Below, piece by piece: positions 2,062-16,896 of a stretch of DNA of 52,942 nt (positions within the stretch are counted from its first letter, which is position 1; the number at the start of each line of letters is the position of its first letter). The position numbers and the translations under genes were made by a program. The stretch is from Flavobacterium sp. UBA5153. GTDB taxonomy: Bacteria; Bacteroidota; Bacteroidia; Flavobacteriales; Flavobacteriaceae. The notes beneath the pieces are model-generated. The model saw nothing but the letters and a program-made list of their open reading frames with translations. It had not been told where the DNA came from and did not search any database. The stretch lies in the NCBI GenBank assembly GCA_002413745.1, contig DHXP01000017.1, positions 13,023 to 65,964 of the forward strand, given 5' to 3'.

Positions 2062-2772
2062 ATGAACAAAAAAATCCAACTTCAAGATTTAGGACTCCAA
2101 GACTACAAAGCAACTTGGGAATATCAGGAAGAATTATTCAAAGGGGTTGTCGATTTAAAAATCAGGAATAGGAGGGAAGAACTCAGTCTGGAAACTCCTA
2201 ATTATTTTCTTTTCGTAGAACATCCACACGTTTATACTTTGGGTAAAAGCGGCGATTTAGAAAACCTTCTTTTATCCGAAAAACAGCTCGAAGCCAAAGG
2301 AGCGACTTTCTACAAAATTAATCGTGGCGGCGATATTACGTATCATGGGCCTGGACAAATTGTGGGTTATCCTATTTTAGACTTGGAAAATTTCTTCACT
2401 GACATTCATAAATATTTGCGATTTCTGGAGGAAGCCATCATTCTCACTTTAGCAGAATATGGACTGGATTGTGGTAGAAGTGCAGGCGAAACAGGTGTTT
2501 GGTTGGGTGCAGGAACTCCATTTGCGAGAAAAATTTGTGCACTTGGCGTTCGTGCTTCGCGCTGGGTTACGATGCACGGTTTTGCTTTGAATGTAAATGT
2601 GGATTTGGGTTATTTCGACAATATCATTCCCTGTGGCATTCGCGGCAAAGCGGTAACTTCCTTAAATGTCGAACTTGGAGTCGAAAAAGTGGACGAAGAA
2701 GAAGTAAAGGCGAAAATCCTGAAACATTTTTCAATTCTTTTCGAAGCGAAATTTCAAACTTCAAATTCCTAA
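2062..2772 (+). CDS. lipB: Octanoyltransferase LipB
   Basis: Moves the octanoyl group from octanoyl-ACP to lipoyl domains of 2-oxoacid dehydrogenases and GcvH, the first step of endogenous lipoate synthesis; cytoplasmic. The 236-residue protein carries the family signatures RGGDITYHGPGQIVGYP (about residues 91-107), the lysine-bearing stretch ARKICALGVRASRW with K157, and PCGI with the acyl-carrying cysteine C191, followed by GKAVTSL. Length and motif order are normal. It stands alone and runs into a repeat and the accessory block that starts at about 2806. Confidence 0.96.
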   Translation: MNKKIQLQDLGLQDYKATWEYQEELFKGVVDLKIRNRREELSLETPNYFLFVEHPHVYTLGKSGDLENLLLSEKQLEAKGATFYKINRGGDITYHGPGQIVGYPILDLENFFTDIHKYLRFLEEAIILTLAEYGLDCGRSAGETGVWLGAGTPFARKICALGVRASRWVTMHGFALNVNVDLGYFDNIIPCGIRGKAVTSLNVELGVEKVDEEEVKAKILKHFSILFEAKFQTSNS

Positions 2773-2805: not shown

Positions 2806-2858
2806 AATTCCAACTGTTCCGGCAATAATCGAAACGAAATTCGATAGTATTTTGCGAT
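2806..2858 (-). pseudogene. Decayed duplicate of the rnhB 3' end
   Basis: By eye, 44 of 53 positions match the last coding part of the intact rnhB at 6748-6800, in the same orientation. Read on the - strand it gives [17 protein letters not shown], against [17 protein letters not shown] in the intact gene. The similarity stops exactly at repeat A on one side and fades into the attC-like palindrome on the other. No upstream part of rnhB is present, so it cannot be functional. Confidence 0.75.
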
Positions 2859-2872
2859 TCCGAGCAATCGAG

Positions 2873-2996
2873 TTATAATGTCCCGGCGCTTTGAGATGGT
2901 GGGGATTTCGGAACAGAATATTTTCTGTTTAACGAAAACGTGATGCGGAACGATAATTCCACTAAAAACCCTGCTTGCAAAAATATGCTGTTATGT
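2873..2996 (-). repeat. Weak attC-like palindrome (site 0)
   Basis: Lies where the other attC-like sites lie relative to their genes, directly 3' of the - strand genes. One end reads GTTATGT (2990-2996), the other ATTATAAC on the - strand, a degraded GTTRRRY-type box. A 7-bp hairpin (AACAGAA/TTCTGTT, 2912-2929) sits in the middle. Pairing of the arms is poor, so this is the least certain site. Confidence 0.3.
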
Positions 2997-3632
2997 GGTG
3001 TTTTGTTTTTCATCAAGTTCACTGTCTGTTATTATACCAGTAAATTCAAGGTCTTTAAGTCCCGCATACCAAGTTCGTCTGTTTTTTCCATCTCTAATAT
3101 TAAACAGTTTTAAGTATCCTTTAGTCCGATCTAACTGATTATTTATACTAATTCCATTTGTAAAGTTTTCGGTAAAAAATGGTTCTTGATATTTGTCGCA
3201 CCCAATGTCTTTGTATTCTCTCATTCCCTTTTTCTCCTGAGAATTGAACTCCTGAAACCAAATGTAAAAAATCCGATTGTAAATTTTCCCATAACCTGGG
3301 AAATAACTACAATCTTTCCCTCTACCAAAAAGATCTGCATACCTATCAGTTTTATATCTGACTAATTCTGTTTGATCATTTGGCAATGGTTCTATCCTTT
3401 CACTTTCAAAACAAACCCCTCTTGTATTGCCACTTCCATACCATTTAGGATATTTCTTTACCCATTTGGCATACTCAAGGCTATCTTCCTCTGTCTGATT
3501 AGAAACGGTCTCCATGTTAAATTGAATAGTCCTTTGCTCAGTAAAAGCTGCTGATTTTTGCTTTGGTTTTTGTTTGTTGATAAATACGACAAAAAATACA
3601 ATAAGAATTATGGTGATGATAAATGTTGTCAT
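2991..3632 (-). CDS. Unrecognised single-pass membrane protein (213 aa)
   Basis: I do not recognise this protein. It starts with a hydrophobic segment (residues 3-18, FIITIILIVFFVVFI) followed by lysines, so it is probably anchored in the inner membrane; the rest looks like one soluble domain rich in Tyr, Lys, Asp and Glu. Its start overlaps the stop of the upstream 181-aa gene by four bases (ATGA), which indicates translational coupling and a shared role. Its stop codon lies inside the end box of the weak attC-like palindrome, so gene and palindrome look like parts of one unit. The codons are AT-rich. Confidence 0.7.
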   Translation of the reverse strand: MTTFIITIILIVFFVVFINKQKPKQKSAAFTEQRTIQFNMETVSNQTEEDSLEYAKWVKKYPKWYGSGNTRGVCFESERIEPLPNDQTELVRYKTDRYADLFGRGKDCSYFPGYGKIYNRIFYIWFQEFNSQEKKGMREYKDIGCDKYQEPFFTENFTNGISINNQLDRTKGYLKLFNIRDGKNRRTWYAGLKDLEFTGIITDSELDEKQNTT

Positions 3633-4174
3633 TTGTTCTCGAATTGTTTTTTATGAAGCAATTTTTTAGTTCCCTTTAAAATCGCATCTTGGCTCAATAG
3701 GATATTATTATCACCTTCTATTGTGTTTGACTTTAAGTAGTCAGCATCCATACCTAATTTGGTAATAAGTCCCTCCAACTCCTTTTCTTCTTTAATGTCA
3801 TCGTTTAGCATTATTTGAGCCTGATTTATGAGTAGGAGCATTTTCGTTTTATTTAATTTTTTGTTGTAGTCAGGGTCGGTGGTTGTGATTAGTTCTGATA
3901 TAATTTGTCTAAAATTTGAAATCCATTCGTATCTGTTTTTAAAATCAAAGTCCGAATGAATTTGAAGCCTAATTTTTTCTAAGTCTGCTTTAATTGTTTT
4001 GCGAATTAGTAAATATTGAGAAGCAACTGTAATTATTGCAACCAGCAGCATTCCAAGAACAGTAACATAGGTCGAATTTAGGTCACTACTGTCCTGAACA
4101 GGTAGTTTGTCAACCGTGTCACTCAATAAGTTAATTACTTTGTCCTCTAATATAATTTTTAAGGTGTCTCTCAT
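3629..4174 (-). CDS. Unrecognised membrane protein with cytosolic helical domain (181 aa)
   Basis: Function unknown. It has a short polar N-terminal part, one transmembrane segment (about residues 36-57), then a mostly charged, probably helical region of 120 residues. It is the first gene of a two-gene operon: its stop overlaps the ATG of the 213-aa membrane protein by four bases. The pair fills the space between two attC-like palindromes (4198-4330 upstream, 2873-2996 downstream). Two coupled small membrane proteins in such a setting would fit a toxin/immunity or defence pair, but nothing in the sequence shows that. Confidence 0.65.
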   Translation of the reverse strand: MRDTLKIILEDKVINLLSDTVDKLPVQDSSDLNSTYVTVLGMLLVAIITVASQYLLIRKTIKADLEKIRLQIHSDFDFKNRYEWISNFRQIISELITTTDPDYNKKLNKTKMLLLINQAQIMLNDDIKEEKELEGLITKLGMDADYLKSNTIEGDNNILLSQDAILKGTKKLLHKKQFENK

Positions 4175-4197
4175 ATTGTAATGGTCGTCTTAAAATG

Positions 4198-4330
4198 CCA
4201 CTAACGTTTCGCAACTACAAGAAGTGGCAAATTTCGTAACTGGATATTTTCGGTTACTGCAAAATTCCCTGCGAAACGTGAACGTAATTTTACCACAGAA
4301 TTTGCCATTTCTTGTAACTGCTGTTGGTGG
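4198..4330 (-). repeat. attC-like imperfect palindrome (site 1)
   Basis: A 133-nt element with the two-box arm design of integron attC sites. The outer boxes CCACTAAC (4198-4205) and GTTGGTGG (4323-4330) pair over 8 bp with one wobble. After unpaired spacers, the inner arms (about 4214-4233 and 4299-4316) pair over about 18 bp with one G-T wobble and one offset. The centre holds a small GTAAC/GTTAC hairpin. It lies 3' of the - strand genes at 4557-5516. Confidence 0.55.
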
Positions 4331-4411
4331 TTCGGCTTTTTATTTATTTCAATTTTTTCGGTTTCGCATTTTCACCGCTATTAAGTAAAGTGCAAGTTTA
4401 AATTATTTATT

Positions 4412-4621
4412 ATGAAAGATTACACAAAGGAAATTAGAGTAAAAATTACAATTAATTCAAAAGGAAAAAAAAGTTTTAAAATCACTCGTTATCTAGATGG
4501 TGTTTTACACGAATCTTACAGATACGAAAAACAAAAAATAGCTTTAATGTGGATTGTTAGTCTCTTTCTGCGTTATCAACCACAACGTAACCCTCTTCGT
4601 CTAGATAAACTAGCTCATTAA
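4412..4621 (+). CDS. Small unrecognised protein (69 aa)
   Basis: The first 50 codons look like a real small basic protein (lysine-rich, alternating beta pattern, MKDYTKEIRVKITINSKGKK). The last 20 residues overlap, tail to tail, the end of the - strand gene at 4557-4763 and have a different composition. It is preceded by an AT-rich leader after the attC-like site 1. The start context TTATTATG is the same as at the + strand gene at 6146. It may be a real cassette gene with an altered 3' end, or a chance frame. Confidence 0.4.
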   Translation: MKDYTKEIRVKITINSKGKKSFKITRYLDGVLHESYRYEKQKIALMWIVSLFLRYQPQRNPLRLDKLAH

Positions 4622-4763
4622 ATTGAATGTGAATCAGGTCGTTTCCGTATAATTTAGCTTGAAAGAATTTTAATCCTCCAAATGATATTCTAAAATCATC
4701 GGGATATTGTTCTAATTCTTCTAGTAACCTTTTTTTAGTAATTGTTGGTTCTGATCTGTTCAT
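4557..4763 (-). CDS. Small unrecognised soluble protein (68 aa)
   Basis: Function unknown. I choose the ATG at 4763 (MNRSEPTITKKRLLEELEQ), which lies 7 nt after the stop of the upstream 98-aa gene; the longer frame starting at 4796 would overlap that gene. It begins with a basic helix followed by YPDDFRISFGG and a beta-rich acidic end, a pattern seen in small phage and mobile-element proteins. It is the third gene of a - strand group (143, 98 and 68 aa) that ends just before attC-like site 1. Confidence 0.55.
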   Translation of the reverse strand: MNRSEPTITKKRLLEELEQYPDDFRISFGGLKFFQAKLYGNDLIHIQFNELVYLDEEGYVVVDNAERD

Positions 4764-4770
4764 ATTGTTT

Positions 4771-5067
4771 TTATAAAGGGTTTTTAAATTGTTCAATTAT
4801 GTCTGAAATTATTCTGTTTGAAACTAATGATAATTGCAAACCGATAATAATCAAAAATCCTCCTAATAGAGTAAAGTTTGTTTTATCTGCAATAAATTTT
4901 GGCAATTCCATTAATGTTTCGACATTAATATTTTCAGGATTATTTTCAATATTTGTTTCCATTAGTTGGGATTTAATTAAAAATACAATTCCAGCTATTA
5001 ATATTACATTTCCAATTAATCGGATATAACCAGCTTCATTATTGTTGGCTTTTATTTCATCATTCAT
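4771..5067 (-). CDS. Small two-pass membrane protein (98 aa), paralogue of 5772-6116
   Basis: Function unknown. It has two transmembrane segments (about residues 15-32 and 65-83) joined by an acidic loop, with a short soluble tail. It clearly matches the 114-aa protein at 5772-6116, sharing IADKTNFTLLGG, GLQLSLVSN and EQFKNP, so the two are recent relatives in neighbouring cassettes. It is the middle gene of a three-gene - strand group, 17 nt after the 143-aa gene and 7 nt before the 68-aa gene. Confidence 0.65.
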   Translation of the reverse strand: MNDEIKANNNEAGYIRLIGNVILIAGIVFLIKSQLMETNIENNPENINVETLMELPKFIADKTNFTLLGGFLIIIGLQLSLVSNRIISDIIEQFKNPL

Positions 5068-5084
5068 CTTTTAAATTTTAATTA

Positions 5085-5516
5085 TTATGGCAAATTTTTT
5101 TCTTTTTCGGAAGTCTTTTTGGCTTTCAGTAGTTCGTTTTCCACTTTCAATATTCTCACTTGGTTCTCAAGGTTGGTGTTTGATAGGGATAATACTTTGT
5201 TTTTCAATTCGTATATATCACGATCGTGATTTTTGGGTGCAATTATGGGAATATATTCTCTCAAGATTGGTGTAATAGATATGAAAGCAAAAACTAAAGC
5301 TAAATATGTTAGCCACATTATGCTATTGGCTTGTTTGTCAGCAGTAATCCCTTGTTGTACGATAATGTCTTTTAATTCTTCTATTGTCTTATTAGTTTTA
5401 TGTACAGGGTTTTCAGATATAATTGTTTCTAATGGAGGAGTTACTTTTGGTAAGTTTTTAAACATAGGACTTTCTGAAAATTTTTTAGCAAAATCGAGGG
5501 TATTTTTTAAACTCAT
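5085..5516 (-). CDS. Unrecognised membrane protein with C-terminal coiled coil (143 aa)
   Basis: Function unknown. A polar N-terminal region (1-65) is followed by one transmembrane segment (about 66-86, IMWLTYLALVFAFISITPIL) and a C-terminal part with heptad-like Leu/Val spacing (about 100-135, rich in Lys/Glu), so a coiled coil is likely. It is the first gene of a - strand group of three small proteins. attC-like site 2 begins 36 nt upstream of its ATG. Confidence 0.65.
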   Translation of the reverse strand: MSLKNTLDFAKKFSESPMFKNLPKVTPPLETIISENPVHKTNKTIEELKDIIVQQGITADKQANSIMWLTYLALVFAFISITPILREYIPIIAPKNHDRDIYELKNKVLSLSNTNLENQVRILKVENELLKAKKTSEKEKNLP

Positions 5517-5552
5517 ATTTTTCTTATTTAGGTTTCAGTTCTGCAAGCTGAC

Positions 5553-5684
5553 CACCAACGTTCTCGCGCTACACGCAGGCTGGGGCAAGGAAGCCTAAAC
5601 TTTCGAGTAATAACTAACCTTAAAAACACAAAACTATGTTTAAATTAAGCCAAAATCCCAGCTTGCTTGTAGCGTGTGTTGGGC
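5553..5684 (-). repeat. attC-like imperfect palindrome (site 2)
   Basis: A 132-nt element nearly the same length as site 1. On the - strand it starts with GCCCAAC (5684-5678), an exact RYYYAAC box. It ends with GTTGGTG (5559-5553), a near GTTRRRY box. The inner arms at 5567-5584 and 5657-5674 match at 16 of 18 positions and are set off from the outer boxes by unequal unpaired spacers (7 and 3 nt), as in attC sites. Confidence 0.6.
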
Positions 5685-5743
5685 AACGTATTTTCTGTTT
5701 TCTATTCGGTTGTAGAATAGAAAACAGAAAATGCACCCGTTGC
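5683..5743. repeat. Long perfect hairpin next to attC-like site 2
   Basis: A perfect 18-bp stem (5690-5707 and 5715-5732) with a 7-nt loop, flanked by a further 6-bp pair GCAACG/CGTTGC (5683-5688, 5738-5743). It lies between the 114-aa gene and site 2. It has no T run, so it is not an obvious terminator. Confidence 0.6.
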
Positions 5744-5771
5744 TTTTTGGAGTTTGGAGTTCCAAAAATGT

Positions 5772-6116
5772 CTAATCCTCCAAATCCTCCCAATATACCA
5801 AACCCTCCTTAATGTTTTCTGTCGATCTTGGATTTTTAAATTGTTCTTTGATTTCTGTAATTACTTGGTTTGACACTAAAGATAATTGTAACCCGACAAT
5901 AGTCAATAATCCTCCTAATAGAGTAAAGTTGGTTTTGTCTGCAATTTTTTTAGGTATTTCCAGTAGTGTTTTAGCATCAATGTTTTCATAATCATCAATT
6001 GACACTTCCATAACTTGTGAAATTATCAGTAATATGATTCCAGCTATTAATACTAATCTGCCAACTAAACGTACAGAATCAGCCGAACTATCAGTTATTT
6101 TTATTTCATTACTCAT
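5772..6116 (-). CDS. Small two-pass membrane protein (114 aa), paralogue of 4771-5067
   Basis: Function unknown. It has two transmembrane segments (about residues 16-34 and 64-82), the acidic loop IDDYENIDAKTLLEIPKK between them, and a C-terminal extension of about 18 residues that the 98-aa relative lacks. Only 29 AT-rich bases separate its ATG from the divergent + strand gene at 6146. Its 3' side faces the long hairpin and attC-like site 2. Having the same family in two adjacent cassettes suggests cassette duplication or repeated capture. Confidence 0.65.
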   Translation of the reverse strand: MSNEIKITDSSADSVRLVGRLVLIAGIILLIISQVMEVSIDDYENIDAKTLLEIPKKIADKTNFTLLGGLLTIVGLQLSLVSNQVITEIKEQFKNPRSTENIKEGLVYWEDLED

Positions 6117-6145
6117 TATTTATAAACTTTAAAAATTAAATTATT

Positions 6146-6346
6146 ATGTTAGATATTACAGACAAAATCAAAGAGGAAACTATTTCAATTGTTACACTTT
6201 ATGAAAATTTTGATTTACAAGATGAACTTGTAAATTTTTTAGAACAAAAAGGTTATATTGTAACTTTAGATAGTTCAGAAATTGATGCTCCAGAAAATCA
6301 ACCACCAAGATTACTTATTTTGGTTAGGAAACAAAATGAAGCATAG
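6146..6346 (+). CDS. Small acidic unrecognised protein (66 aa)
   Basis: Function unknown. A short acidic, soluble protein (MLDITDKIKEETISIVTLYE...) with a helical N-terminal half and a beta strand near the end (RLLILV). It is divergent from the 114-aa membrane protein and its last codons overlap the end of the 67-aa - strand gene by 23 nt. The start context TTATTATG is the same as at 4412. Confidence 0.5.
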   Translation: MLDITDKIKEETISIVTLYENFDLQDELVNFLEQKGYIVTLDSSEIDAPENQPPRLLILVRKQNEA

Positions 6347-6527
6347 ATTCTAAAGACGTTTTTTTACCTGTCATTCTAAACATTTCGTAATGTGCTAAAA
6401 TTGGAGTGTCAAAAGCAATAGGCAAATCTAATTCGGTTTTCTTTTTAAGTAATTCACTTCTTAATTCTAACTTTTCAGTTTTATCATTAGAATCGTAATA
6501 CTTTTTAATTAAATCTTTTAATTCCAT
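6324..6527 (-). CDS. Small unrecognised helical protein (67 aa)
   Basis: Function unknown. Charged and probably helical (MELKDLIKKYYDSNDKTEKL...), with no membrane segment. It is the most upstream - strand gene of the accessory block, starting 23 nt after the attC-like end at 6550. It overlaps tail to tail with the 66-aa gene on the other strand. Confidence 0.5.
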   Translation of the reverse strand: MELKDLIKKYYDSNDKTEKLELRSELLKKKTELDLPIAFDTPILAHYEMFRMTGKKTSLESMLHFVS

Positions 6528-6549
6528 TTCGCTTTATGTTTAAGGTTAT

Positions 6550-6595
6550 TATTAACGTTCTTTTGGCACTTCGGTTTCTCAATATGTTGCCCAAC
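6550..6595 (-). repeat. Partial attC-like end at the border of the accessory block
   Basis: On the - strand this stretch has GTTGGGC (6595-6589), an exact GTTRRRY box, and GAACGTTAATA (6560-6550). The latter is like the GAAACGTTAGTG and GAACGTTGGTG ends of sites 1 and 2. No paired left arm is visible, so it is a truncated site or another kind of boundary. Confidence 0.35.
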
Positions 6596-6737
6596 TTGTA
6601 TATAGGTCTGACAAAATCATACAAAGCCACCCAAATTTAGCTAGATAGGTAAGATAAACATCATACTTTATTTGTTTCTCAAATATATAAATAATTCTTT
6701 ACAAATTATCAAAAGGACTTTTATTAAAAAAAACAAT

Positions 6738-7397
6738 CTAAATATCTAATTTCAACTGTTCCGGCAACAATCTAAACGTCATTCGATGGTATTTCGTAAC
6801 ACCATATTTCCTTATGGCTTCCCGATGCTCTTTCGTGGGATAACCTTTGTTTTGCTTCCAATTGTACATTGGAAATTCCTCGTGAATCAGGTTCATATAA
6901 TCATCCCGATACGTTTTTGCCAGCACAGAAGCCGCTGCAATGCTCATATATTTCGAATCTCCTTTTACAATACTTTGATTGGGAATAGATTTCAATAATT
7001 CGATTTCAGCTTTAGAAAATTGTTTTCCAAAAGTGTTTTTTAAACCCAATTTTGCGTTCAACAACCTGTTGCCGTCCACAATAATAAATTCGGGTGTTAG
7101 ATTTAATTTCAAAATACATTCCTGCATTCCTTTCATTGAAGCATTCAGGATATTGATTTCATCAATTTCATTCGGATGTAAATGTGTTACAGCAAACGAA
7201 ATGGCTTGTTGTTCGATAATTGGCCTGAGTTTTTCCCTCGTTTTTTCGGATAATTGCTTACTGTCATTCAAGATTTCATTTTTAAAATCAGGAGGAAGAA
7301 TTACGGCCGCTGCGGTAACTGGACCGGCAAGACAACCGCGACCAGCTTCGTCGGTGCCGGTTTCTAAATATTGTGTTAAAAAATAATTACTTAACAT
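6738..7397 (-). CDS. rnhB: Ribonuclease HII
   Basis: Cuts the RNA strand of RNA-DNA hybrids and removes single ribonucleotides from DNA. The 219-residue protein is full length: [13 protein letters not shown] (about residues 14-26, with acidic residues D16 and E17), [34 protein letters not shown], and the C-terminal [14 protein letters not shown] and [17 protein letters not shown]. The ATG at 7397 fits the family. Its 3' end is the copy matched by the remnant at 2806-2858 on the far side of the accessory block. Confidence 0.95.
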
Positions 7398-7594
7398 TAG
7401 ATTAATTTTAGCAAAAATATAATTTTTTACACTATTTTTTAAATAATGTTGAATAAATAAGACTGTATTGTGTTGGTATTATGTTCATATCTATTTTTTA
7501 TTGTGAATAAAAAAATAATATTATCATAGATTTATGTTGTTTATTTAAGAAATTATTAAGATTTTTGCAAAATAACTAATTCAAATAAATTAAT

Positions 7595-10500
7595 ATGAGA
7601 TCAAAATTCAAATGGATTTTTACGCTATTTTTAGCGTTATCAATGCAGTTTTCTTTTGCACAAGAGAAAATAATTACGGGTGTAGTTTCAGACAATTCAG
7701 GTCCCATTCCGGGAGTAAATGTTATTGTTAAAGGAACAAAAAAATCAATACAAACTGATTTAGACGGGAAGTATTCTATTAAAGCAAGTGTGGGAGAAAT
7801 TTTAGTATTTTCTTTTGTAGGTATGCAGGAGATAACGGTTAAGGTTGGTACTTCTGATTCTTTAAACGTTAAGATGGCTTCAGATGCAGAAATGATGAAT
7901 GAAGTTGTTGTAATGGGGTATGTTACCAAAACTAAAAGTAACATGACAGGTAGTTCTAAACAACTTTCCGGAAGCGTTTTAAGTAGTGTTCCAACTGTTT
8001 CTGTTGATCAGGCTTTACAAGGTAAGGTAGCTGGTTTACAGGTTTCTAGTTCTTCAGGAACTCCGGGTTCGGTTCAGGATATTCGTATTAGAGGTGTAGG
8101 TTCAATTTCAGCAAATAATCAACCTTTGTATGTTATTGATGGCGTTCCTGTTGTAAGTGGAGATTTCTCAGGAGCTAATGATAATAGAACGAACCCAAAT
8201 GCGAGTACATCTTCTTCGATTTCTTCTTTGGCGGCAATAAATAGTAATGATATTGAAAGTATTACAGTTTTGAAAGATGCTTCTGCAACAGCTGCTTATG
8301 GTGCAAGAGGTTCTAATGGTGTAATTGTAATTACGACCAAAAAAGGTAAAACAGGAAAGGCGGTTTACAATTTTAGTAATTCTGTTGGTTTTCAAAACAA
8401 TGCTGTTGATGGAAGAAATGCTTTGACTGGAGATCAAAGAAAAGAGCTTTATTTAGATGCAATTTTTAATAGCTATGGAACGGCCAATGGTTTTGATAGA
8501 GCTGGTGCGCAAACTTGGTTGTTTAATACACCATTAGGACAAACTACAGATGGTAGGAATGGATCATTGGCAGATTGGGACGGAGTAAGTCATAATTGGG
8601 GAGAATTGTTAAAAAACAAAGATGCCTTAGTGCAAAATACTAATTTATCAGTTTCTTCAGGTGATGAGAAAGGTACGTTTAATGCATCTTTAGGTTATAA
8701 TAAGACAGAGGCAACCGTTAAGGGGGGGGAATTTAATCGTTTGACAGCTAACTTAGGTTTGACAAGAAAATTGAGCGAATCGCTTAAGTTTAGTTCTTCG
8801 AATTCCTTTTCTGAGGCAAAGCAAAATGGTATTTTAGAAGGATCGGGTACTTTTAGTAACCCTAATTTATCTAAATATTTCATGAATCCATGGATTAATC
8901 CTTATAATGCTGATGGTTCTTATAATATTGGTAGTGCTGCTGGTACTGGGCCAAAACCTTCAGATATTAATTATTGGACATCATTGCATAACACATTTTA
9001 TACTTTAGAGCATAATATTAAAAAGAATGATTTGGTTAGGCTTATGTCTAACAATACTTTGGATTGGAAAATTTCTAATCATTTCAAATACAAATCTGTA
9101 TTTGCTGTAGATTACATAATGAACACCTATCTTAATTATAATAATAGAATTCATGGAGATGGAAAAGCTCTTAATGGCTCTGTTTATCAAAATGTTAGAA
9201 AGAATGTAAATCTAGTTTCACAAAATTCGATTAACTATAATTTGAAATTAGACAAGCATAGTTTTGATGCCACTGCTTTATTCGAACATCAAAAAAATAA
9301 AAATGATTATCTTGGTGGTTATGGTGAAGGTATTGCTGCGGACGGTTTGAATTATTTAGATGTTGTTTCAAAAAATAAAACTGTTGAAGGAAATTATGTT
9401 GATTGGACAAATATTTCTTATTTAGGATTGTTCAACTATGGTTACGACAGTAGATATATATTAGATGCTACATACAGAAGAGAAGGATCATCTAAATTTG
9501 CAGAAAATTTCCGTTTTGGTGATTTTTGGTCGGTAGGTGCTGCTTGGAATATTTATAAAGAAGCATTTATGGAGGGATCAGTTTTTAATAATTTGAAACT
9601 GAGAGCATCTTATGGTACTTCTGGAAATAGTGGTATAAACGAGAATCAATATCAACGATTATTAGGATTTTCCGCTTCTTATGATTCGCAGCCAGTTCTT
9701 TATCCATCAGGTGTTGGGAATGGAACTTTAACTTGGGAGAAAAATAAAACTGCCGATGTAGGGTTTGAATTTGGTGTATTCAATAATAGATTTTCTGGAA
9801 GTGCATCCTACTATAATAGAAACACTTACGATTTATTGCAAAGTGTTCCAGTTTCATTGACTCAAGGAGTTACCTCTCAGTTAATGAATGTTGGTTCTGT
9901 TCTGAACAAAGGAATTGAAGTAGATATTAATTTTGAAATTATTAGAAGTAAAGATTTCCATTGGTCAATTTCTGCAAATTATGCACATAATGATAATAAA
10001 GTTGAAAAGCTTGCAAAGGATTTAGCAGGGAAGGATATTGAAATTGTTTCAGGTACAAGAATTACCAAAGTTGGTGAATCAATTAATACTTGGAATATGC
10101 GTAAATGGGCTGGAGTAGATCCGGCAAATGGTTTGCCATTATGGTTTGTTAATGGTCAAGATGGAGCAACAACATCTATCTATAATGATGCTAAAGTTGC
10201 TATGCAAGGAAAATCGGCTCCTGTTTTTTCTGGTGGTTTCGGAACTCATGCTGATTACAAAGGTGTTTACTTTGATGTTTCATTTTATTATGCAGGAGGG
10301 CATAAAGTTTTTGAGGATTGGGCTTCTTATACTCAAAGTACAGGGAATTATACTTTCGCAACTTTTAATGGTACGGAAAACCTAATGGACAGATGGCAAA
10401 AACCTGGTGATATTGTTTCAACTCCAAAAATGGAAATTGGAAGTGGAAGAAGTGCTGCATCTACATCAACACGGTTTTTGTATGGTGGGGATTATTTAAG

Positions 10501-10717
10501 AATGAAAGATTTAGTATTGGGTTATCAATTTAACCAAGGGATTCTTAAAGCCATGGGACTTGCAGGATTAGACATGTCAGTAAGAGGAACTAATTTGTTG
10601 ACTTTTGTAAAAGACAGCAATTTGAAGTACGATCCAGAAGTACGAGCTGATGGTTTAACTCGTTTAGTTAGCCCTCCTGTAAAATCAGTAGTATTTGCAA
10701 TTAATCTAAAATTATAA
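7595..10717 (+). CDS. SusC/RagA-family TonB-dependent outer-membrane transporter
   Basis: Imports a ligand, usually a glycan or peptide, across the outer membrane using TonB energy. The 1040-residue protein has a signal peptide (1-22, ending FSFA), a carboxypeptidase-regulatory-like domain (about 25-100, GVVSDNSGPIPGVNVIVKGT), a plug domain (about 110-250, including LQGKVAGLQV, IRIRGVGS and PLYVIDGVP) and a long beta-barrel ending in a typical hydrophobic strand (VFAINLKL). Only four bases separate it from the susD-like gene, so both are co-transcribed. No hydrolase, peptidase or sensor gene lies next to the pair, so the substrate cannot be told. The preceding 200 nt are AT-rich and hold no gene. 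Confidence 0.93.
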   Translation: MRSKFKWIFTLFLALSMQFSFAQEKIITGVVSDNSGPIPGVNVIVKGTKKSIQTDLDGKYSIKASVGEILVFSFVGMQEITVKVGTSDSLNVKMASDAEMMNEVVVMGYVTKTKSNMTGSSKQLSGSVLSSVPTVSVDQALQGKVAGLQVSSSSGTPGSVQDIRIRGVGSISANNQPLYVIDGVPVVSGDFSGANDNRTNPNASTSSSISSLAAINSNDIESITVLKDASATAAYGARGSNGVIVITTKKGKTGKAVYNFSNSVGFQNNAVDGRNALTGDQRKELYLDAIFNSYGTANGFDRAGAQTWLFNTPLGQTTDGRNGSLADWDGVSHNWGELLKNKDALVQNTNLSVSSGDEKGTFNASLGYNKTEATVKGGEFNRLTANLGLTRKLSESLKFSSSNSFSEAKQNGILEGSGTFSNPNLSKYFMNPWINPYNADGSYNIGSAAGTGPKPSDINYWTSLHNTFYTLEHNIKKNDLVRLMSNNTLDWKISNHFKYKSVFAVDYIMNTYLNYNNRIHGDGKALNGSVYQNVRKNVNLVSQNSINYNLKLDKHSFDATALFEHQKNKNDYLGGYGEGIAADGLNYLDVVSKNKTVEGNYVDWTNISYLGLFNYGYDSRYILDATYRREGSSKFAENFRFGDFWSVGAAWNIYKEAFMEGSVFNNLKLRASYGTSGNSGINENQYQRLLGFSASYDSQPVLYPSGVGNGTLTWEKNKTADVGFEFGVFNNRFSGSASYYNRNTYDLLQSVPVSLTQGVTSQLMNVGSVLNKGIEVDINFEIIRSKDFHWSISANYAHNDNKVEKLAKDLAGKDIEIVSGTRITKVGESINTWNMRKWAGVDPANGLPLWFVNGQDGATTSIYNDAKVAMQGKSAPVFSGGFGTHADYKGVYFDVSFYYAGGHKVFEDWASYTQSTGNYTFATFNGTENLMDRWQKPGDIVSTPKMEIGSGRSAASTSTRFLYGGDYLRMKDLVLGYQFNQGILKAMGLAGLDMSVRGTNLLTFVKDSNLKYDPEVRADGLTRLVSPPVKSVVFAINLKL

Positions 10718-10721
10718 GAAA

Positions 10722-12095
10722 ATGAAAAAAATAATATATACTGTTTTGGTTTTTTCTGGAATTTTTTTAAATTCTTGTACAGAAAAAGATCTTGAACCTA
10801 CTTTGACCGTTAATAAAGACGTTAATGTAATATCTAATGTAGGGGATTTGAAAGGTTTACTCAGTGGGGCTTATGATAGAATGACTTCTGCCACATACTA
10901 CGGAAGAAATGTAATAGTTTTTGGCGATGTTCGTTCTGATAATGCATATGCAAATGGAACTTCAGGTAGGTTTTTAACTTCTGGGGCTATGGATATGACT
11001 AATTCTAATGTTGACGCCGATGATGCTTTTCTACAGATGTATAGTGTTATTGCTAATTGTAATATTATTATAAATGCTAACATATCTGGAGATCAAGTAG
11101 CTATTGATCATGTCAAAGGTCAGGCAATGGCTTTACGTGCATTAGTTCATTATGATTTGGTACGTATTTTTGGACAACAGCATGTTGGAACGGGAGGGTT
11201 GAGTGCCTTAGGTGTAGCTTATGTTAAACAATTTTTGGCGCCAACAGAAATGAAGCCAAAAAGAAATACTGTAGGAGAAGTTAAATCTTTTATTTATGAT
11301 GATTTAGATAAAGCTTTAACAATGATGACTCCTTCTTTAAATGGAGATAAAAAAACTATTAGAACTTTTACGGTTAATGCTATTAAAGCTAGAGTTGCGC
11401 TTTATTTTGGGGATTGGGCTATTGCCAAAACGGCATCTCAAGCCGTAATCACCGGAAGTGGAGCCAGAGTACTTACTGCAGCTGAATACCCTGCAGCATT
11501 TAAAGCAAACCTGCAAGCAAATTCAATATTTGAATTAGTTTTTGCTTCTGATGATAACCGCGGGAATGACAGTTTGTATAATATTTTTAACAATACTGCT
11601 TATGGAGATGTTGTTGCTTTGCAAGATTTAAAAGATCAATTCTCTTCAACTGATGTTAGAGGAGGTATGATTACAATACAAGAAAAATCTCGTTTGAGAA
11701 ATACTGGTAAGTTTACAAAAGCAGACATCAACGTTGTGTTGTTTAGATTTGAAGAAATGTTGTTGATAAATGCAGAAGCTTCTTTTAGACTTAATGCAGC
11801 TGATCCTTCAGCTTTGACAAATTTAAATCTTGTAGCGACAAACCGTGGAGCAGTGGCTTATGCTGCGGTGTCGATTGATAATATTCTTTTAGAGCGTAGG
11901 AAGGAACTATGCTTTGAAGGTTTTAGATTTGATGATATTGCAAGAACTAAAAAGGATATGCCTATTGTAGATGCCGTTAGGCAGACTTATGATGATTTAG
12001 GACCGCTTATTTATGGAAGTTATAGATATGCATTTCCAATTCCATTAAGAGAAATGAATGCTAATTCAAATTCTGATCAAAATAAAGGATACTAA
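10722..12095 (+). CDS. SusD/RagB-family surface lipoprotein
   Basis: Lid and ligand-binding partner of the SusC-type transporter, held in the outer membrane by lipid. The 457-residue protein has a lipoprotein signal (MKKIIYTVLVFSGIFLNSC, with the acylated Cys19), SusD-type helical repeats (GQAMALRALVHYDLVRIFGQ, about 127-147, is the usual TPR-like stretch) and the conserved C-terminal LLERRKELCFEGFRFDDIAR. It follows its partner after four bases and is ended by a strong terminator at 12121. Confidence 0.92.
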   Translation: MKKIIYTVLVFSGIFLNSCTEKDLEPTLTVNKDVNVISNVGDLKGLLSGAYDRMTSATYYGRNVIVFGDVRSDNAYANGTSGRFLTSGAMDMTNSNVDADDAFLQMYSVIANCNIIINANISGDQVAIDHVKGQAMALRALVHYDLVRIFGQQHVGTGGLSALGVAYVKQFLAPTEMKPKRNTVGEVKSFIYDDLDKALTMMTPSLNGDKKTIRTFTVNAIKARVALYFGDWAIAKTASQAVITGSGARVLTAAEYPAAFKANLQANSIFELVFASDDNRGNDSLYNIFNNTAYGDVVALQDLKDQFSSTDVRGGMITIQEKSRLRNTGKFTKADINVVLFRFEEMLLINAEASFRLNAADPSALTNLNLVATNRGAVAYAAVSIDNILLERRKELCFEGFRFDDIARTKKDMPIVDAVRQTYDDLGPLIYGSYRYAFPIPLREMNANSNSDQNKGY

Positions 12096-12120
12096 TCAAT
12101 AATTAGTTTTTATATTAACA

Positions 12121-12154
12121 AAAAACCCGATTGCAGATGCAATCGGGTTTTTTT
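12121..12154 (+). terminator. Terminator of the susC/susD operon
   Basis: The stem CCCGATTGCA (12126-12135) pairs perfectly with 12138-12147 and is followed by a T7 run. An A run precedes it. It lies 25 nt after the susD-like stop codon. Confidence 0.9.
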
Positions 12155-12250
12155 ATTTCTCTTAATTTACTTTTTTTATTTATATGTTTTTTCATTTACC
12201 TTTGCTTGAATAAAATTCTTGAATAATTACCTAATTATATACCGTTCCAA

Positions 12251-14191
12251 ATGAGGATTCTCTTTTTCTTATATCTTTTAGTATTACCAACATTCCTGTT
12301 TTCTCAAGAAAAAAAGACTAATGAATTAGACTATAATAGCAAATACAACCGCTCGGATTCAATAAAAAAACCAAAAAAAGTAGCTACCATAGATTTATAT
12401 CGAGTGATTACACTGGAGCGCGACACCACTTATATTGACACTTCCTTAACGATAAAAAAAGCATATAGTTTCAATTATTTGAGAAAAGACACTTTTGGGC
12501 TTTTGGCTTTTCCTAATGAAGGGCAAACCTATAATACTTTACAATATAGTTTAACGGATTTTTCTCCCTTTCCCGAATTTGGTTTCAAGGCAAAGCATTT
12601 TAATTTTTTGGAAGCAAATCAAATACGATATTGTTCCGTTGCGACTCCGGTTACAGAATTATATTTCAAAACCGTGATGCAGCAAGGACAATCTGTTGAC
12701 TCATTTATAACCTTAAACACTTCTCCGAGATTCAATTTTTCTATTGCTTATAGAGGATTGCGATCTGCCGGAAAGTATATCAATCAATTGTCAAGCACCG
12801 GAAATTTCAGGTTCACCACAAGTTACAACACAAAAGACGAGCGCTATTATGCCAATGCGCATTTTACTTCCCAAGACATTTCAAATGGCGAAAATGGTGG
12901 AATCACGACTATTGATAATTTTGAGAGTGAAGATCCTGCTTATAAAAACAGGGCTAGATTCGAAGTTTATTTTAATGATGCAAAATCATTCCTGAAAGGG
13001 AAACGAGTGTTTTTGGACCATTTTTTTAGAATCAATGCGGTTAAGGGAGACAACAATTTGTATGTTGCCCATCAATTTAATTATGAAAATAAATTTTTCG
13101 AATACAATCAAGCAACAGTTCCGTCAAATGTTGGTGCTACAACGGTCTATAGATTTGGTGATTCTTACAAAACCAGTGGGATAAATGACCAAACTCATTA
13201 CAATAAAATGTACAATAAGGCAGCACTTATTTATGAAAATACGAGCTTGGGGAAATTTCAGTTTTTTATCGATGATTTTAGAACCAGTTATTACTACCAC
13301 CAAATATTAATTTTAGACAGCCAGACCATTCCTGCGGCATTAAACCTAAGAATAAACAGTGTGGGAGGTCAATATGACTATCAAAAAAACAAATGGAACG
13401 GCAAATTTTTATATTCAAGATCCATTACAAATCAATCCTTGTCGAATCTGGACGCCAAGATGCGATATGATTTGAATGAAGAAACTCAATTGTCATTTGA
13501 ATACCAAAACATAAACAAATTGCCTAATAATAATTATGATTTGTACCAAAGCAGCTACGTAAATTACAACTGGTACAATGAATTCAAGAACGAAAAAATA
13601 AACTCGATTAATGCCAATGTAACTACGCCTTGGTTTGATGCGTCGCTACAATTTCTAACCTTAAATGACCATTTGTATTTTGATAATGTGGCTACCGATG
13701 CAACAACCCAAATAGTAAGACCAAACCAATACAATGGCACCATAAATTATTTGTCGGTTAAAGTGGGCAAAGAATTAAAATTCGGAAAATTTGCATTGGA
13801 CAACACCCTTTTATATCAAAAAGCGGATCAGCAGGATTATATTCTAAACGTACCCGAAATTGTCACAAGAAACACGCTTTACTATTCTAATACGATGTTC
13901 CATAAAGCCTTGTTTTTGCAAACAGGAGTGACCTTGAACTATTTTACAAAATATTATGCGAATGACTATAATCCGGTAATTGGCGAGTTTTTCGTTCAAA
14001 ACAAGAAAGAAATCGGTAATTTTCCAAACCTCGATTTTTTCTTTAATGCCCGGATTCAAAGGACTAGAATTTATTTAATAGCCGAACATTTTAATTCGGC
14101 TTATACAGGAAATAATTTCTATTCGGCACCCAATACTCCGTACCGCGATTTTATGATTCGATTTGGTTTGGTTTGGAATTTCTTCGAATAA
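12251..14191 (+). CDS. Putative outer-membrane porin (Porin_10-like)
   Basis: Probably a beta-barrel channel of the outer membrane. The 646-residue protein begins with a signal peptide (MRILFFLYLLVLPTFLFSQ), then a Ser/Lys-rich linker. The remainder is made of alternating aromatic and polar strands typical of a barrel and ends in RFGLVWNFFE, with a terminal aromatic residue. The opening block ITLERDTTYIDTSLTIKKAY and the later LLAFPNEGQTYNTLQYS match my memory of the Bacteroidota putative porin family. It starts 155 nt after the susD-like gene, beyond a terminator, so it is its own unit. Confidence 0.8.
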   Translation: MRILFFLYLLVLPTFLFSQEKKTNELDYNSKYNRSDSIKKPKKVATIDLYRVITLERDTTYIDTSLTIKKAYSFNYLRKDTFGLLAFPNEGQTYNTLQYSLTDFSPFPEFGFKAKHFNFLEANQIRYCSVATPVTELYFKTVMQQGQSVDSFITLNTSPRFNFSIAYRGLRSAGKYINQLSSTGNFRFTTSYNTKDERYYANAHFTSQDISNGENGGITTIDNFESEDPAYKNRARFEVYFNDAKSFLKGKRVFLDHFFRINAVKGDNNLYVAHQFNYENKFFEYNQATVPSNVGATTVYRFGDSYKTSGINDQTHYNKMYNKAALIYENTSLGKFQFFIDDFRTSYYYHQILILDSQTIPAALNLRINSVGGQYDYQKNKWNGKFLYSRSITNQSLSNLDAKMRYDLNEETQLSFEYQNINKLPNNNYDLYQSSYVNYNWYNEFKNEKINSINANVTTPWFDASLQFLTLNDHLYFDNVATDATTQIVRPNQYNGTINYLSVKVGKELKFGKFALDNTLLYQKADQQDYILNVPEIVTRNTLYYSNTMFHKALFLQTGVTLNYFTKYYANDYNPVIGEFFVQNKKEIGNFPNLDFFFNARIQRTRIYLIAEHFNSAYTGNNFYSAPNTPYRDFMIRFGLVWNFFE

Positions 14192-14211
14192 ATTTTAAAT
14201 TCTTTTTTAAA

Positions 14212-14355
14212 ATGAAATATTCAGAAAATATATTAGGCACAATCGAGGAAGTTTCCAGATTGTTTACCAAAGAAAACGAAGTGGTTTTGGTAGATTTAGA
14301 AAACGGAAGCCACCATATTATTACCAAATCGGATATTATTGGTTCGATAAAATAG
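14212..14355 (+). CDS. Small conserved-looking protein (47 aa)
   Basis: Function unknown. I take the ATG at 14212 (MKYSENILGTIEEVSRLFTK); the longer frame from 14173 runs back into the porin gene. It is soluble, acidic at its start and beta-rich at its end (VVLVDLENGSHHIITKSDIIG). It lies 20 nt after the porin stop and may be co-transcribed. A repeat and a terminator follow. Confidence 0.55.
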   Translation: MKYSENILGTIEEVSRLFTKENEVVLVDLENGSHHIITKSDIIGSIK

Positions 14356-14365
14356 TTTTAGATTT

Positions 14366-14388
14366 GTCTTCCCGAGCGCAGTCGAGGG
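14366..14388 (+). repeat. Dispersed repeat A, copy 2
   Basis: A 23-nt variant, GTCTTCCCGAGCGCAGTCGAGGG. It sits directly after the 47-aa gene, as copies 1 and 3 sit after lipB and the DUF2851 gene. Confidence 0.65.
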
Positions 14389-14400
14389 ATTTTAAAATAC

Positions 14401-14434
14401 ACCTGCAAGGTTTTTTGAACCTTGCAGGTTTTTT
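14401..14434 (+). terminator. Terminator after the porin/47-aa unit
   Basis: A perfect 12-bp stem (ACCTGCAAGGTT at 14401-14412 with 14418-14429), a 5-nt loop and a T6 run. It separates the porin unit from the convergent XRE regulator gene. Confidence 0.85.
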
Positions 14435-14494
14435 GCTTTATAGTGTTGCGGGTTGACGGAAAACTTTTTAATAGCCATAAATTATATTGATATT

Positions 14495-14734
14495 TTATTG
14501 AGTTTTAAAAAGATCTTTAACCTCTATTTTAAGTGCTTCAACTATTTTTAGCATTGTGCTTACTTTCATTTCTTGTTTTCCTTTAATATATTTTCTTAGA
14601 TTTTCAACATCCATATCAGCATCGTGAGCAACTTCTCTAGTTTTCAATCCTTTTTCTTTGATAATTTCCTCAATACGCTTCCCTAAAAGGAGAATTTCTT
14701 GACTCATTTCCGATTTCCGAACTCTTTTTTCCAT
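14495..14734 (-). CDS. XRE-family helix-turn-helix regulator
   Basis: A small DNA-binding repressor-type protein of 79 residues. The HTH region spans about residues 15-70: EEIIKEKGLKTREVAHDADM forms the first helices and DVENLRKYIKGKQEMKVSTM the recognition part, followed by LLKIVEALKIEVKDLF, the usual XRE ending. It is divergent from the type III modification gene, whose ATG lies 101 nt away, so it probably controls the restriction-modification genes as C-proteins do in other systems, and itself. A 13-nt palindrome just before its ATG is a candidate operator. An internal ATG at 14707 is an alternative start. Confidence 0.8.
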   Translation of the reverse strand: MEKRVRKSEMSQEILLLGKRIEEIIKEKGLKTREVAHDADMDVENLRKYIKGKQEMKVSTMLKIVEALKIEVKDLFKTQ

Positions 14735-14739
14735 AATTG

Positions 14740-14752
14740 GAAAGTTACTTTC
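14740..14752. promoter_or_regulatory. Candidate operator of the XRE regulator
   Basis: GAAAGTTACTTTC is a perfect palindrome around a central T, 5 nt upstream of the XRE start codon and between the divergent regulator and mod genes. Its place suits self-repression. There is no second copy nearby to support it. Confidence 0.35.
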
Positions 14753-14786
14753 GTCTGATTAAATAAATAGGATTGTATGAATCGGG

Positions 14787-14815
14787 TTGTATTCAACTGT
14801 TTTTTTATATATTTG
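14787..14815 (+). promoter_or_regulatory. Promoter of the type III mod gene
   Basis: TTG (14787-14789), an 18-nt spacer and TATATTTG (14808-14815) fit the Bacteroidota -33/-7 promoter. The mod ATG is 20 nt downstream. Confidence 0.6.
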
Positions 14816-14835
14816 GAAAAATATAAATGATTTAA

Positions 14836-16896
14836 ATGAAACTATACGCAATTCTCGAATCGGTTTTAAAATCGGAATCCAACAATACTTCCACCACAAA
14901 ACTAATAGACAATCAAGGGGATTTGATGCTCAATAAAATCCACGATTTAGTCGATAAAACCGATGAAAATTTAATTGGTTTGTTATTAGAAAATCAAGAA
15001 TTACGAGAAAAATTCTTCTTTAAAATTAAAGATGTTTATGTTTTTAAAACCAATGATTTCAAGTTTTTCCTGGATGAAAATAAAATTGATAATTCCTACA
15101 CTCAATACGAAAACAGAATTGGATTAACTGCTAGTGGAAAATTTCTAAAAGACAGTTCCGATGTTGTTTTAGATTTTCCATACAAAGATTGCATTCTTGA
15201 AGGAGGACAAAGCACCGAAGAAGGCACTGATACTTATTTTGAATACGACCCAAAAGAAGGTCATTATCTTGCAAAACAAGCCAAGCGAAAAGAAATATTT
15301 TTTAATACCGTTCTTGCCAAAGACGAAATTGACCGATTGCTTGAACCTAAAGCGTTTTCTAACATAAAAAAATACAGCCCCCTAACCCCCGAAGGGGAAA
15401 CAATACAGAAATTTGAAAGAGATGAAAAGGATACGATAAAAGACAATCTTATCATTAAAGGAAACAACCTTTTAGCCTTGCATACTTTGAAAAGCGAGTT
15501 TGCCGGCAAAGTAAAACTCATTTATATTGATCCGCCATATAATACTGGGAATGATAGTTTTGCATACAATGATAATTTTAATCATTCTACTTGGTTGACT
15601 TTTATGTATAATAGGTTGCAAATTGCAAAAACATTTTTAAAAAATGATGGTGTGATTTTTATAAGTTTAGATGATAACGAGTACACATATTTACGTTCTT
15701 TATTAGACGATGTTTTTGGAAAGGAACGATTTGAAAATATTTTTCATATTAAGGTACGACACGAGAATAGGATTTTGAGGCAAGATGCAAGATACCAAAA
15801 AGTTATGGAGCAAACACTCTGTTATTCAATGCCGGAATTTACCCCAAACAGAATTTTTTTAGAAAAAAATAAAGATTTTGATTATAATTTTGATTTGATA
15901 ATCAAACCAAGTGTTAAGCCATATAAAGTAGAAATAATAAATGGTTTTGAAGTTGAAATTTATAAAAAAGAGGATTATGAGTTAGTTAAAAAAGCTAATG
16001 GAAGCTATAAGGAATATAATATTAGAGGGTCATTGATTACGCAGAAAGGTTCTGCTTCAGAATTTTACGAATTGTTTTTACGTGAGAAAAAAGAAGGCGA
16101 TGGTAAAGGAGCGTTATATAAAGTTTTAAAAATGGGAGAAAAAGGCGACGGTTTAGGTTATCGCTATATTAGACAGCCTTTTGACAATGGCTCGAATGGG
16201 TTTTATTATCAAGGAAAGCCCACTAAAGCGGGTAATGATAAAGGTAATCCTTATCCCAATTATTATGATTTTGAAAAGGATTTTAATAATTGTGCCAATG
16301 AAGGAGGGATTATTTTTAAAAACGGAAAAAAACCAGAAAATTTTTTAAAAAAGATATTTGAAATTGCTAATATTTCTGAAAAAGATATTTTTTTAGATTT
16401 TCATTTAGGTTCAGGTTCAAGTTGTGCAATTGCTCATAAATTAGGAATTCAATATATTGGGATTGAACAAATGGATAATCAAGTAAATTTATCTAAAACA
16501 AGATTACAAAACGTTATAAATAACGACCAAACGGGAATCTCAAAATCAGTAAACTGGCAAGGAGGCGGTTCATTCGTCTATTTAGAACTAGCCAAAAATA
16601 ATCAAAATGCTATTGAACACATTCAGTCTTGTGAAAGTTATGAGGCTTTAGTTGATTATTTTGACGTAATGCGCGACAAGTATTTCTTGCATTATAATGT
16701 CAAAGTAAATGAGTTTAGGGAAATAATTTGCAAAGAAGAAAACTTCAAAAAATTGACTTTAGACCAACAAAAAATAATGTTTGCCAAAATGCTTGATTTA
16801 AACCAGTTGTATGTCAATGTTTCGGACATGGAAGACAGTCGTTATGCTTTGAGTACAACTGATATTGCCGTAACAAAAGATTTTTATCAACTGTAA
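14836..16896 (+). CDS. mod: Type III restriction-modification methyltransferase subunit Mod
   Basis: Recognises the target and methylates adenine on one strand; needed both for protection and for restriction. The 686-residue protein has the beta-class order of motifs: catalytic DPPYNTG (residues 232-238) first, a variable target-recognition region (about 290-480), then the AdoMet-binding motif DFHLGSGSS (521-529) and GIQYIGIEQ. NLIIKGNNLLALHTLK just before DPPY is typical of Mod. Residues 181-188 (SPLTPEGE) are encoded by what looks like a dispersed repeat. It starts 101 nt from the divergent XRE regulator and precedes res by 48 nt. Both motifs are intact, so it should be active. Confidence 0.95.
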   Translation: MKLYAILESVLKSESNNTSTTKLIDNQGDLMLNKIHDLVDKTDENLIGLLLENQELREKFFFKIKDVYVFKTNDFKFFLDENKIDNSYTQYENRIGLTASGKFLKDSSDVVLDFPYKDCILEGGQSTEEGTDTYFEYDPKEGHYLAKQAKRKEIFFNTVLAKDEIDRLLEPKAFSNIKKYSPLTPEGETIQKFERDEKDTIKDNLIIKGNNLLALHTLKSEFAGKVKLIYIDPPYNTGNDSFAYNDNFNHSTWLTFMYNRLQIAKTFLKNDGVIFISLDDNEYTYLRSLLDDVFGKERFENIFHIKVRHENRILRQDARYQKVMEQTLCYSMPEFTPNRIFLEKNKDFDYNFDLIIKPSVKPYKVEIINGFEVEIYKKEDYELVKKANGSYKEYNIRGSLITQKGSASEFYELFLREKKEGDGKGALYKVLKMGEKGDGLGYRYIRQPFDNGSNGFYYQGKPTKAGNDKGNPYPNYYDFEKDFNNCANEGGIIFKNGKKPENFLKKIFEIANISEKDIFLDFHLGSGSSCAIAHKLGIQYIGIEQMDNQVNLSKTRLQNVINNDQTGISKSVNWQGGGSFVYLELAKNNQNAIEHIQSCESYEALVDYFDVMRDKYFLHYNVKVNEFREIICKEENFKKLTLDQQKIMFAKMLDLNQLYVNVSDMEDSRYALSTTDIAVTKDFYQL
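15376..15400 (+). repeat. Repeat-like C/G-rich segment inside mod
   Basis: A C-rich stretch starting AGCCCCCTAACCCCCGAAGG stands out in AT-rich DNA and resembles a repeat that I recall as common between genes in Bacteroidota. It is in frame and encodes SPLTPEGE (residues 181-188) just before the methyltransferase core. Confidence 0.45.

Follow-up and report, generated by a model that had tools for sequence, protein, structure and literature searches.

Classical integrons gather cassettes of one to a few genes, each ending in a palindromic site with AAC and GTT ends that is cut at GTT, into long arrays on one strand, with the attachment site attI beside the integrase gene. The accessible text of two earlier studies describes how integron integrases (IntI) gained recombination of folded single strands through an additional stretch, I2, and places this stretch in no other protein (PMC7790495, PMC4792948). 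In Treponema the integrase is read toward the cassettes, and the available part of the source describes these integrons with an intI (PMC3607928). Clusters of attC sites lacking an integrase (CALIN) are defined in PMC9668308 by two or more sites spaced by under 4 kb with no integrase next to them. For the Bacteroidetes, the accessible text of PMC9024848 names earlier only In0, and now a complete integron in Salinibacter. Here we report on a 52,942-nt stretch of Flavobacterium sp. UBA5153 (contig DHXP01000017.1, positions 13,023 to 65,964; in the following the window), which holds a block of small genes and palindromes at 2877-6595. Judged by its sequence features, this locus is very probably a remnant integron, composed of an attI and three minus-strand cassettes, which has lost its integrase gene at this location.

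The whole array (2877-6595) lies on the minus strand, and each of its three cassettes closes with a folded AAC...GTT site of about 120 nt. The features are given below. R1 is a covariance model built from 59 sites less than 80% alike, the three sites of the window included, and its E-values are rough; it was trained on loci of Flavobacterium genomes, and sites longer than 160 nt were left out.

6593..6654, minus: attI, scoring 43.8 bits (E 2.1e-12) with a hidden Markov model (HMM) built from 19 attI sites outside the window; cassette 1 joins at GTT 6595-6593
5557..6595, minus: cassette 1, 67-aa and 114-aa genes and site; 15 nt of its start are complementary to its own end
6324..6527, minus: 67-aa gene of cassette 1, open reading frame (ORF)
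5772..6116, minus: 114-aa gene of cassette 1, ORF; paralogue of the 98-aa gene (80% DNA identity), with a 69% homologue in a cassette of locus L214
5557..5680, minus: cassette site 1 (AAC...GTT), R1 121.8 bits, E 7.7e-23; among the 59 training sites
4203..5559, minus: cassette 2, 143-, 98- and 79-aa genes and site; start pairs at 6 of 7 positions with its own site
5085..5516, minus: 143-aa gene of cassette 2, ORF
4771..5067, minus: 98-aa gene of cassette 2, ORF; 67% homologue in the L214 cassette
4557..4796, minus: 79-aa gene of cassette 2 (TTG start), ORF
4203..4325, minus: cassette site 2 (AAC...GTT), R1 89.1 bits, E 5.4e-16; in the training set
2877..4205, minus: cassette 3, 181- and 213-aa genes and site; the most decayed cassette
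3629..4174, minus: 181-aa gene of cassette 3, ORF
2991..3632, minus: 213-aa gene of cassette 3, ORF
2877..2992, minus: cassette site 3 (AAC...ATT, decayed), R1 66.6 bits, E 2.9e-11; in the training set

The ORF list holds no integrase in the window between the attI with its array and rnhB. Three sites between 2877 and 5680 without an integrase beside them match the CALIN definition (at least two sites within 4 kb), and a candidate CALIN is what the first-pass annotation of this DNA had proposed. Its core, an array of mobile cassettes without an integrase, is borne out by the GTT borders of the units, by covariation within the sites, and by same-strand arrays behind an integrase as well as empty sites in relatives. 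The name CALIN, however, fits only in part. Because the array starts at a genuine attI, the locus is to be seen as an integron that lost its integrase and not as a cluster standing on its own. Nor is it a classical-integron CALIN, because the cognate integrase belongs to a different lineage without the IntI-specific stretch.

In intact relatives an integrase gene is followed after about 105 nt by attI and then by alternating cassettes and sites, all on one strand. The integrase at the head of these arrays is a tyrosine integrase of about 347 aa which is read toward the cassettes. A scan of genome contigs yielded 150 relatives, from which 80 loci were kept (the named loci), mostly from Flavobacterium and also from Lutibacter, Kaistella, Paludibacter, Chitinophagaceae and Cyclobacteriaceae; titles of Bifidobacterium and Ignavibacteria among the relatives are metagenome bins and may be misassigned. 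Counting loci with a near-complete integrase (those lacking ends were left out), a DNA profile finds a site downstream in 28 of 32. Two of the remaining four (L141, L157) end at most 200 nt past the integrase, and the other two (L126, L150) have a site found by the covariance model. All 131 sites in the 32 loci are on the strand of the integrase and none on the opposite strand; for the named loci the numbers are 187 and one. Single arrays can be long, with 20 sites in 15.0 kb in L036. The integrase profile A2 matches 84 of 150 Flavobacterium genomes (E<=1e-60), and a comparison of the genome lists places R1 sites in 81 of these 84 and in 53 of the 66 genomes without an A2 match.

The attI is equally recurrent. 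In 21 of the 28 loci with a downstream site a GTT follows 80-156 nt after the last codon of the integrase, mostly at 103-107 nt, and the next bases pair at 6-7 of 7 positions with the first site. The attI HMM, built from 19 places, matches behind the integrase in 63 of the 80 named loci at a distance of 98-115 nt, and in the window it places attI (6654-6593) directly ahead of cassette 1. Three short repeats of attI covary among 12 sequences (0.712 and 0.848 versus 0.205 and 0.239 after shuffling), and because they covary between species two alternative hairpins may form in the window (6593-6657) and in the other aligned attI sites. The first-pass annotation had listed neither the attI nor the second rnhB 3' end described below. 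It had noted a partial palindrome end at 6550-6595, which turned out to be mainly the start of cassette 1 (GTT 6595-6593) joined to attI, apart from an ACGTT-like stretch near 6558. This second such stretch inside cassette 1 (6540-6595) is possibly what is left of a deleted site.

A cassette that moves as a circle opened at GTT is expected to carry, right behind its upstream GTT, bases that pair with those preceding the AAC of its own site. Among 135 cassettes of 100 to 4000 nt with complete sites, own-cassette pairing reaches a mean of 5.76 of 7 positions (6-7 in 108 cassettes), compared with 2.79 for the adjacent next start and 2.73 +/- 0.11 in 1000 shuffles. A second, partly overlapping set of 145 cassettes (150 to 3000 nt) gives 5.22 for the own site, 3.13 for the adjacent start and 2.64 +/- 0.10 for shuffles, with 103 cassettes reaching 6-7. 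In the window, 15 nt at the start of cassette 1 (6581-6595) can pair (93%) with the end of the same cassette (5678-5692). Duplicated units have the same borders. In the array of G045 one cassette of 1230 nt is present twice at 100% identity with both ends exactly at GTT, one copy being within the array and the other behind the integrase. Seven more duplicate pairs (at least 99%) end within 20 nt of GTT wherever the edge site was detected; two edges have no detected site. These patterns point to discrete cassette units with GTT borders, and the duplicates together with the empty sites indicate that cassettes have moved in the past.

The sites themselves form one family. A single palindrome matches 91 of 150 Flavobacterium genomes (blastn, E<=0.01), many of them with a cluster of copies, and R1 matches 134 of them (E<=0.001). 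Of 190 distinct complete sites, 183 start with AAC and 171 end with GTT. Over the 59 sites of the R1 set the 18 pairs are formed in 88.5% of cells, and the covariation score is 0.616, against 0.185 +/- 0.012 when shuffled and at most 0.099 when slid. In the inner arms the sequence varies and the pairing is kept, with changes on both sides in 15 of 15 inner pairs, which indicates that the fold of the site is under selection.

With respect to the window, the two strong palindromes of the first-pass annotation (4198-4330 and 5553-5684) are present as described. When folded as DNA, their plus strands (z -4.5 and -3.2) are matched by none of 200 dinucleotide shuffles; on the minus strand three of 200 shuffles fold as well in each case. 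A third, weaker palindrome (2873-2996) was at first doubted because its fold is no better than that of shuffles (44 and 43 of 200 fold as well on the two strands), and was later accepted as a true family member because both an iterated profile (8e-14) and the covariance model (3e-11) match it. This profile, seeded with the palindrome 5557-5680 and run over the fetched loci, finds all three sites of the window on the minus strand. The refined AAC...GTT limits are 5680-5557, 4325-4203 and 2992-2877, the last GTT being decayed to ATT. An Rfam scan of the window found only four tRNAs and no family above the gathering score at the cassette sites. Just ahead of site 1, a perfect 18-nt inverted repeat with a 7-nt loop (5690-5732) is perhaps the transcription stop of cassette 1.

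Looking for an integrase and further sites elsewhere in the genome, as suggested in the first pass, gave both. The genome of the window has an intact integrase with attI at C64 (G000:C64), a second copy at C3 with a match over two frames, and R1 matches at no fewer than 21 places (E<=0.001). In addition there are six further attI without integrase (L128, L130, L132, L133, L134, L137), each with a site behind it; attI units thus appear to be dispersed over the genome.

Both integrase and sites have a wide distribution in the class Bacteroidia. Among 395 genomes of this class the integrase profile has matches in 198, from 114 of 196 genera (E<=1e-60), and R1, which is uncalibrated on genomes outside the phylum, matches 235 of 395 genomes in 129 of 196 genera (E<=1e-5). 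In 20 integrase loci from outside Flavobacterium, R1 gives 38 matches (E<=0.1) in 16 loci, all on the strand of the integrase and 37 of them downstream.

With regard to the protein, all 25 aligned members share R204, K229, H294, R297, H320 and Y329, which we take to be the catalytic set. The IntI-specific I2 stretch of about 40 residues is absent in 25 of 25 integrases: measured from the aligned columns, they have 59-60 residues where 15 IntI have 101. In agreement with this, the integrase matches the structure 2a3v in two pieces, and its predicted model has no helix at the place of I2. Three members score 198-203 bits with the IntI profile TIGR02249 (cut-off 265) and are likewise below the cut-offs for XerD (182-189 versus 329.6 bits) and XerC (180-184 versus 335.15). 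In a tree the members fall outside the XerC and XerD clades; this tree has a midpoint root and long-branch warnings, does not include XerA, and shows the members not as one clean group (2 changes). Residues 1-57 form an extra N-terminal domain (L212:10001-10171, within the integrase of F. glaciei at L212:10001-11041), predicted to be rich in strands and without a Pfam match in the four members scanned. It could be a part that binds attI or the hairpin. Variants of the integrase that are much longer occur in L139 and L141 (and L140), with 575 and 584 aa measured and frames of up to 614 aa listed; two of these three loci also head arrays, and the I2 stretch is absent there too.

In the likely cycle, a tyrosine integrase of this family would bring the folded AAC...GTT site of a cassette together with attI or a second such site and cut at the conserved ACGTT, so that a cassette would be excised as a circle or a circle inserted at attI. 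We infer that it is this integrase which performs the recombination and that its substrate is a folded single strand. The cassettes of the window may still be movable by the intact integrase elsewhere in the genome.

Several observations weigh against this picture. The integrase lacks I2, the very stretch by which IntI can act on folded strands. The preference for one strand is weak, as the bottom strand folds better in 86 of the 190 sites and the top strand in 60. No site was found behind the integrase in 13 of 59 named loci with at least 800 nt there, and 17 of the 80 named loci have no recognised attI. In the window, the start of cassette 3 pairs at only 2 of 7 positions (ungapped) with its own site, and the core of this site is ATT.

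A separate question is how the block arrived at its present place, for which the flanking genes are needed.

2062..2772, plus: lipB, flanks the array
2806..2872, minus: second, displaced rnhB 3' end at the far array border beside lipB; 2806-2852 is 47 nt with 87% identity to 6748-6794, continued to about 2872 by eye
6738..7397, minus: rnhB, flanks the array

It is possible, if rather doubtful, that the block came in as an island inserted at the 3' end of rnhB, bringing a replacement 3' end along. In favour of this is the displaced copy next to the last site. We found rnhB in 34 of 40 genomes (E<=1e-30) and examined the rnhB loci of 29 relatives, a comparison which the first pass had called for: lipB is beside rnhB in 19 relatives, 11-1232 nt apart and with no site between them, and a cassette site is present in none of the 29 loci. 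Against an island speaks that the block has no island integrase and that matching flanks are not general among the six other integrase-less attI units of the genome, five of which have no match above 11 nt and one (L128) a match of 13 nt. Flanking duplication as a general rule for such units was therefore dropped; a duplication of this length occurs only in the window. Island entry is compatible with the cassette reading and does not compete with it.

Coming back to the mechanism, the cassettes might move as double strands by an ordinary Xer-type two-strand exchange, with the palindromes serving another purpose, e.g. as transcription stops. The solved structures nearest to the integrase are archaeal XerA (5hxy, 4a8e), which share the absence of I2, and because of this gap and the weak strand preference a double-strand reaction has to be considered. 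We regard it as unlikely, since the inner arms vary and stay paired, which favours recognition of the fold. Unlike XerA, the members stand at cassette arrays and carry the N-terminal extension.

A CALIN of classical integrons, i.e. true attC sites acquired from elsewhere whose making and movement depend on an I2-bearing IntI, is very improbable. The cassette logic, the AAC/GTT ends and the attI would be the same, and other classes of the phylum do have classical IntI (105 of 395 genomes). However, IntI above the curated TIGR02249 cut-off is found in none of the 150 Flavobacterium genomes, a different integrase stands at these arrays, and R1 sites are present in none of 30 classical intI loci, of which about 3.6 kb each were searched. 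A single classical IntI over the cut-off in Bacteroidia, G303:C40:3592-4530, is among the matches listed. A dispersed palindromic repeat of the REP or MITE kind, located between genes without further connection to them, would explain the many, in part single, copies per genome, and can practically be discarded as it is refuted by own-cassette complementarity and opposed by the one-strand arrays behind integrase and attI and by the GTT-bounded duplicates.

Returning to the integron reading, on balance we favour a second, class-wide integron lineage of the Bacteroidia with folded-site cassettes and an integrase without I2, in which the N-terminal domain or another feature would replace I2; it could be either an early side branch of the IntI stem or an independent invention of the integron. 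Compared with classical integrons it shares cassettes, sites, attI and one-strand arrays, and differs in an integrase that has 59-60 residues where IntI has 101, scores below the IntI cut-off, carries the extra domain and is read toward the cassettes. The last trait recalls the Treponema integrons, a likeness drawn by description and not from aligned integrases. In contrast to CALIN, its sites belong to another integrase lineage and attI is present. In the accessible text of PMC8138268 the insertion is not fully conserved in an integron-like subgroup, which counts against novelty. With NCBIfam NF040815 ('site-specific tyrosine recombinase/integron integrase') two members score 219.9 and 219.6 (cut-off 220). 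Because of these scores and that report, integrases of this kind may already carry an integron-integrase label in annotations. A literature search that did not reach most subscription journals or any bioRxiv preprints found no description of this system; the lineage is widespread and apparently undescribed. Searches based on IntI would probably overlook it; the IntI cut-off did so in 150 of 150 Flavobacterium genomes. With a common system that follows this cassette logic without I2, the origin of integrons would become directly testable, and the genomes with R1 matches open a large, mostly unread pool of cassette genes.

The cassette genes of the window belong to this pool. They had been described as unrecognised, and indeed none of nine small proteins reaches a Pfam cut-off and none of seven gives a PADLOC hit at E<=0.01. 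Encoded in two different cassettes, the 98- and 114-aa proteins are nevertheless paralogues. They are also the only two of the seven window cassette proteins with a homologue at E<=1e-4 in 340 loci (3.07 Mb), and the sole place of this homologue is L214:17765-18058 of F. reichenbachii, between two array sites behind an intact integrase.

A different element was seen in L040, where five near-copies of a two-gene unit, encoding a tyrosine recombinase of about 287 aa and a 387-aa protein, lie on the strand opposite to the cassettes:

407-2421, 3433-5444, 6497-8508, 10362-12373 and 13991-16002 (positions of L040), opposite to the cassettes: copies of the two-gene element

Our guess is that this is an IS91-like insertion sequence which targets the sites. 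The copy at 3433 has no detected site ahead of it; for each of the other four, a detected site precedes the start by about 150 nt.

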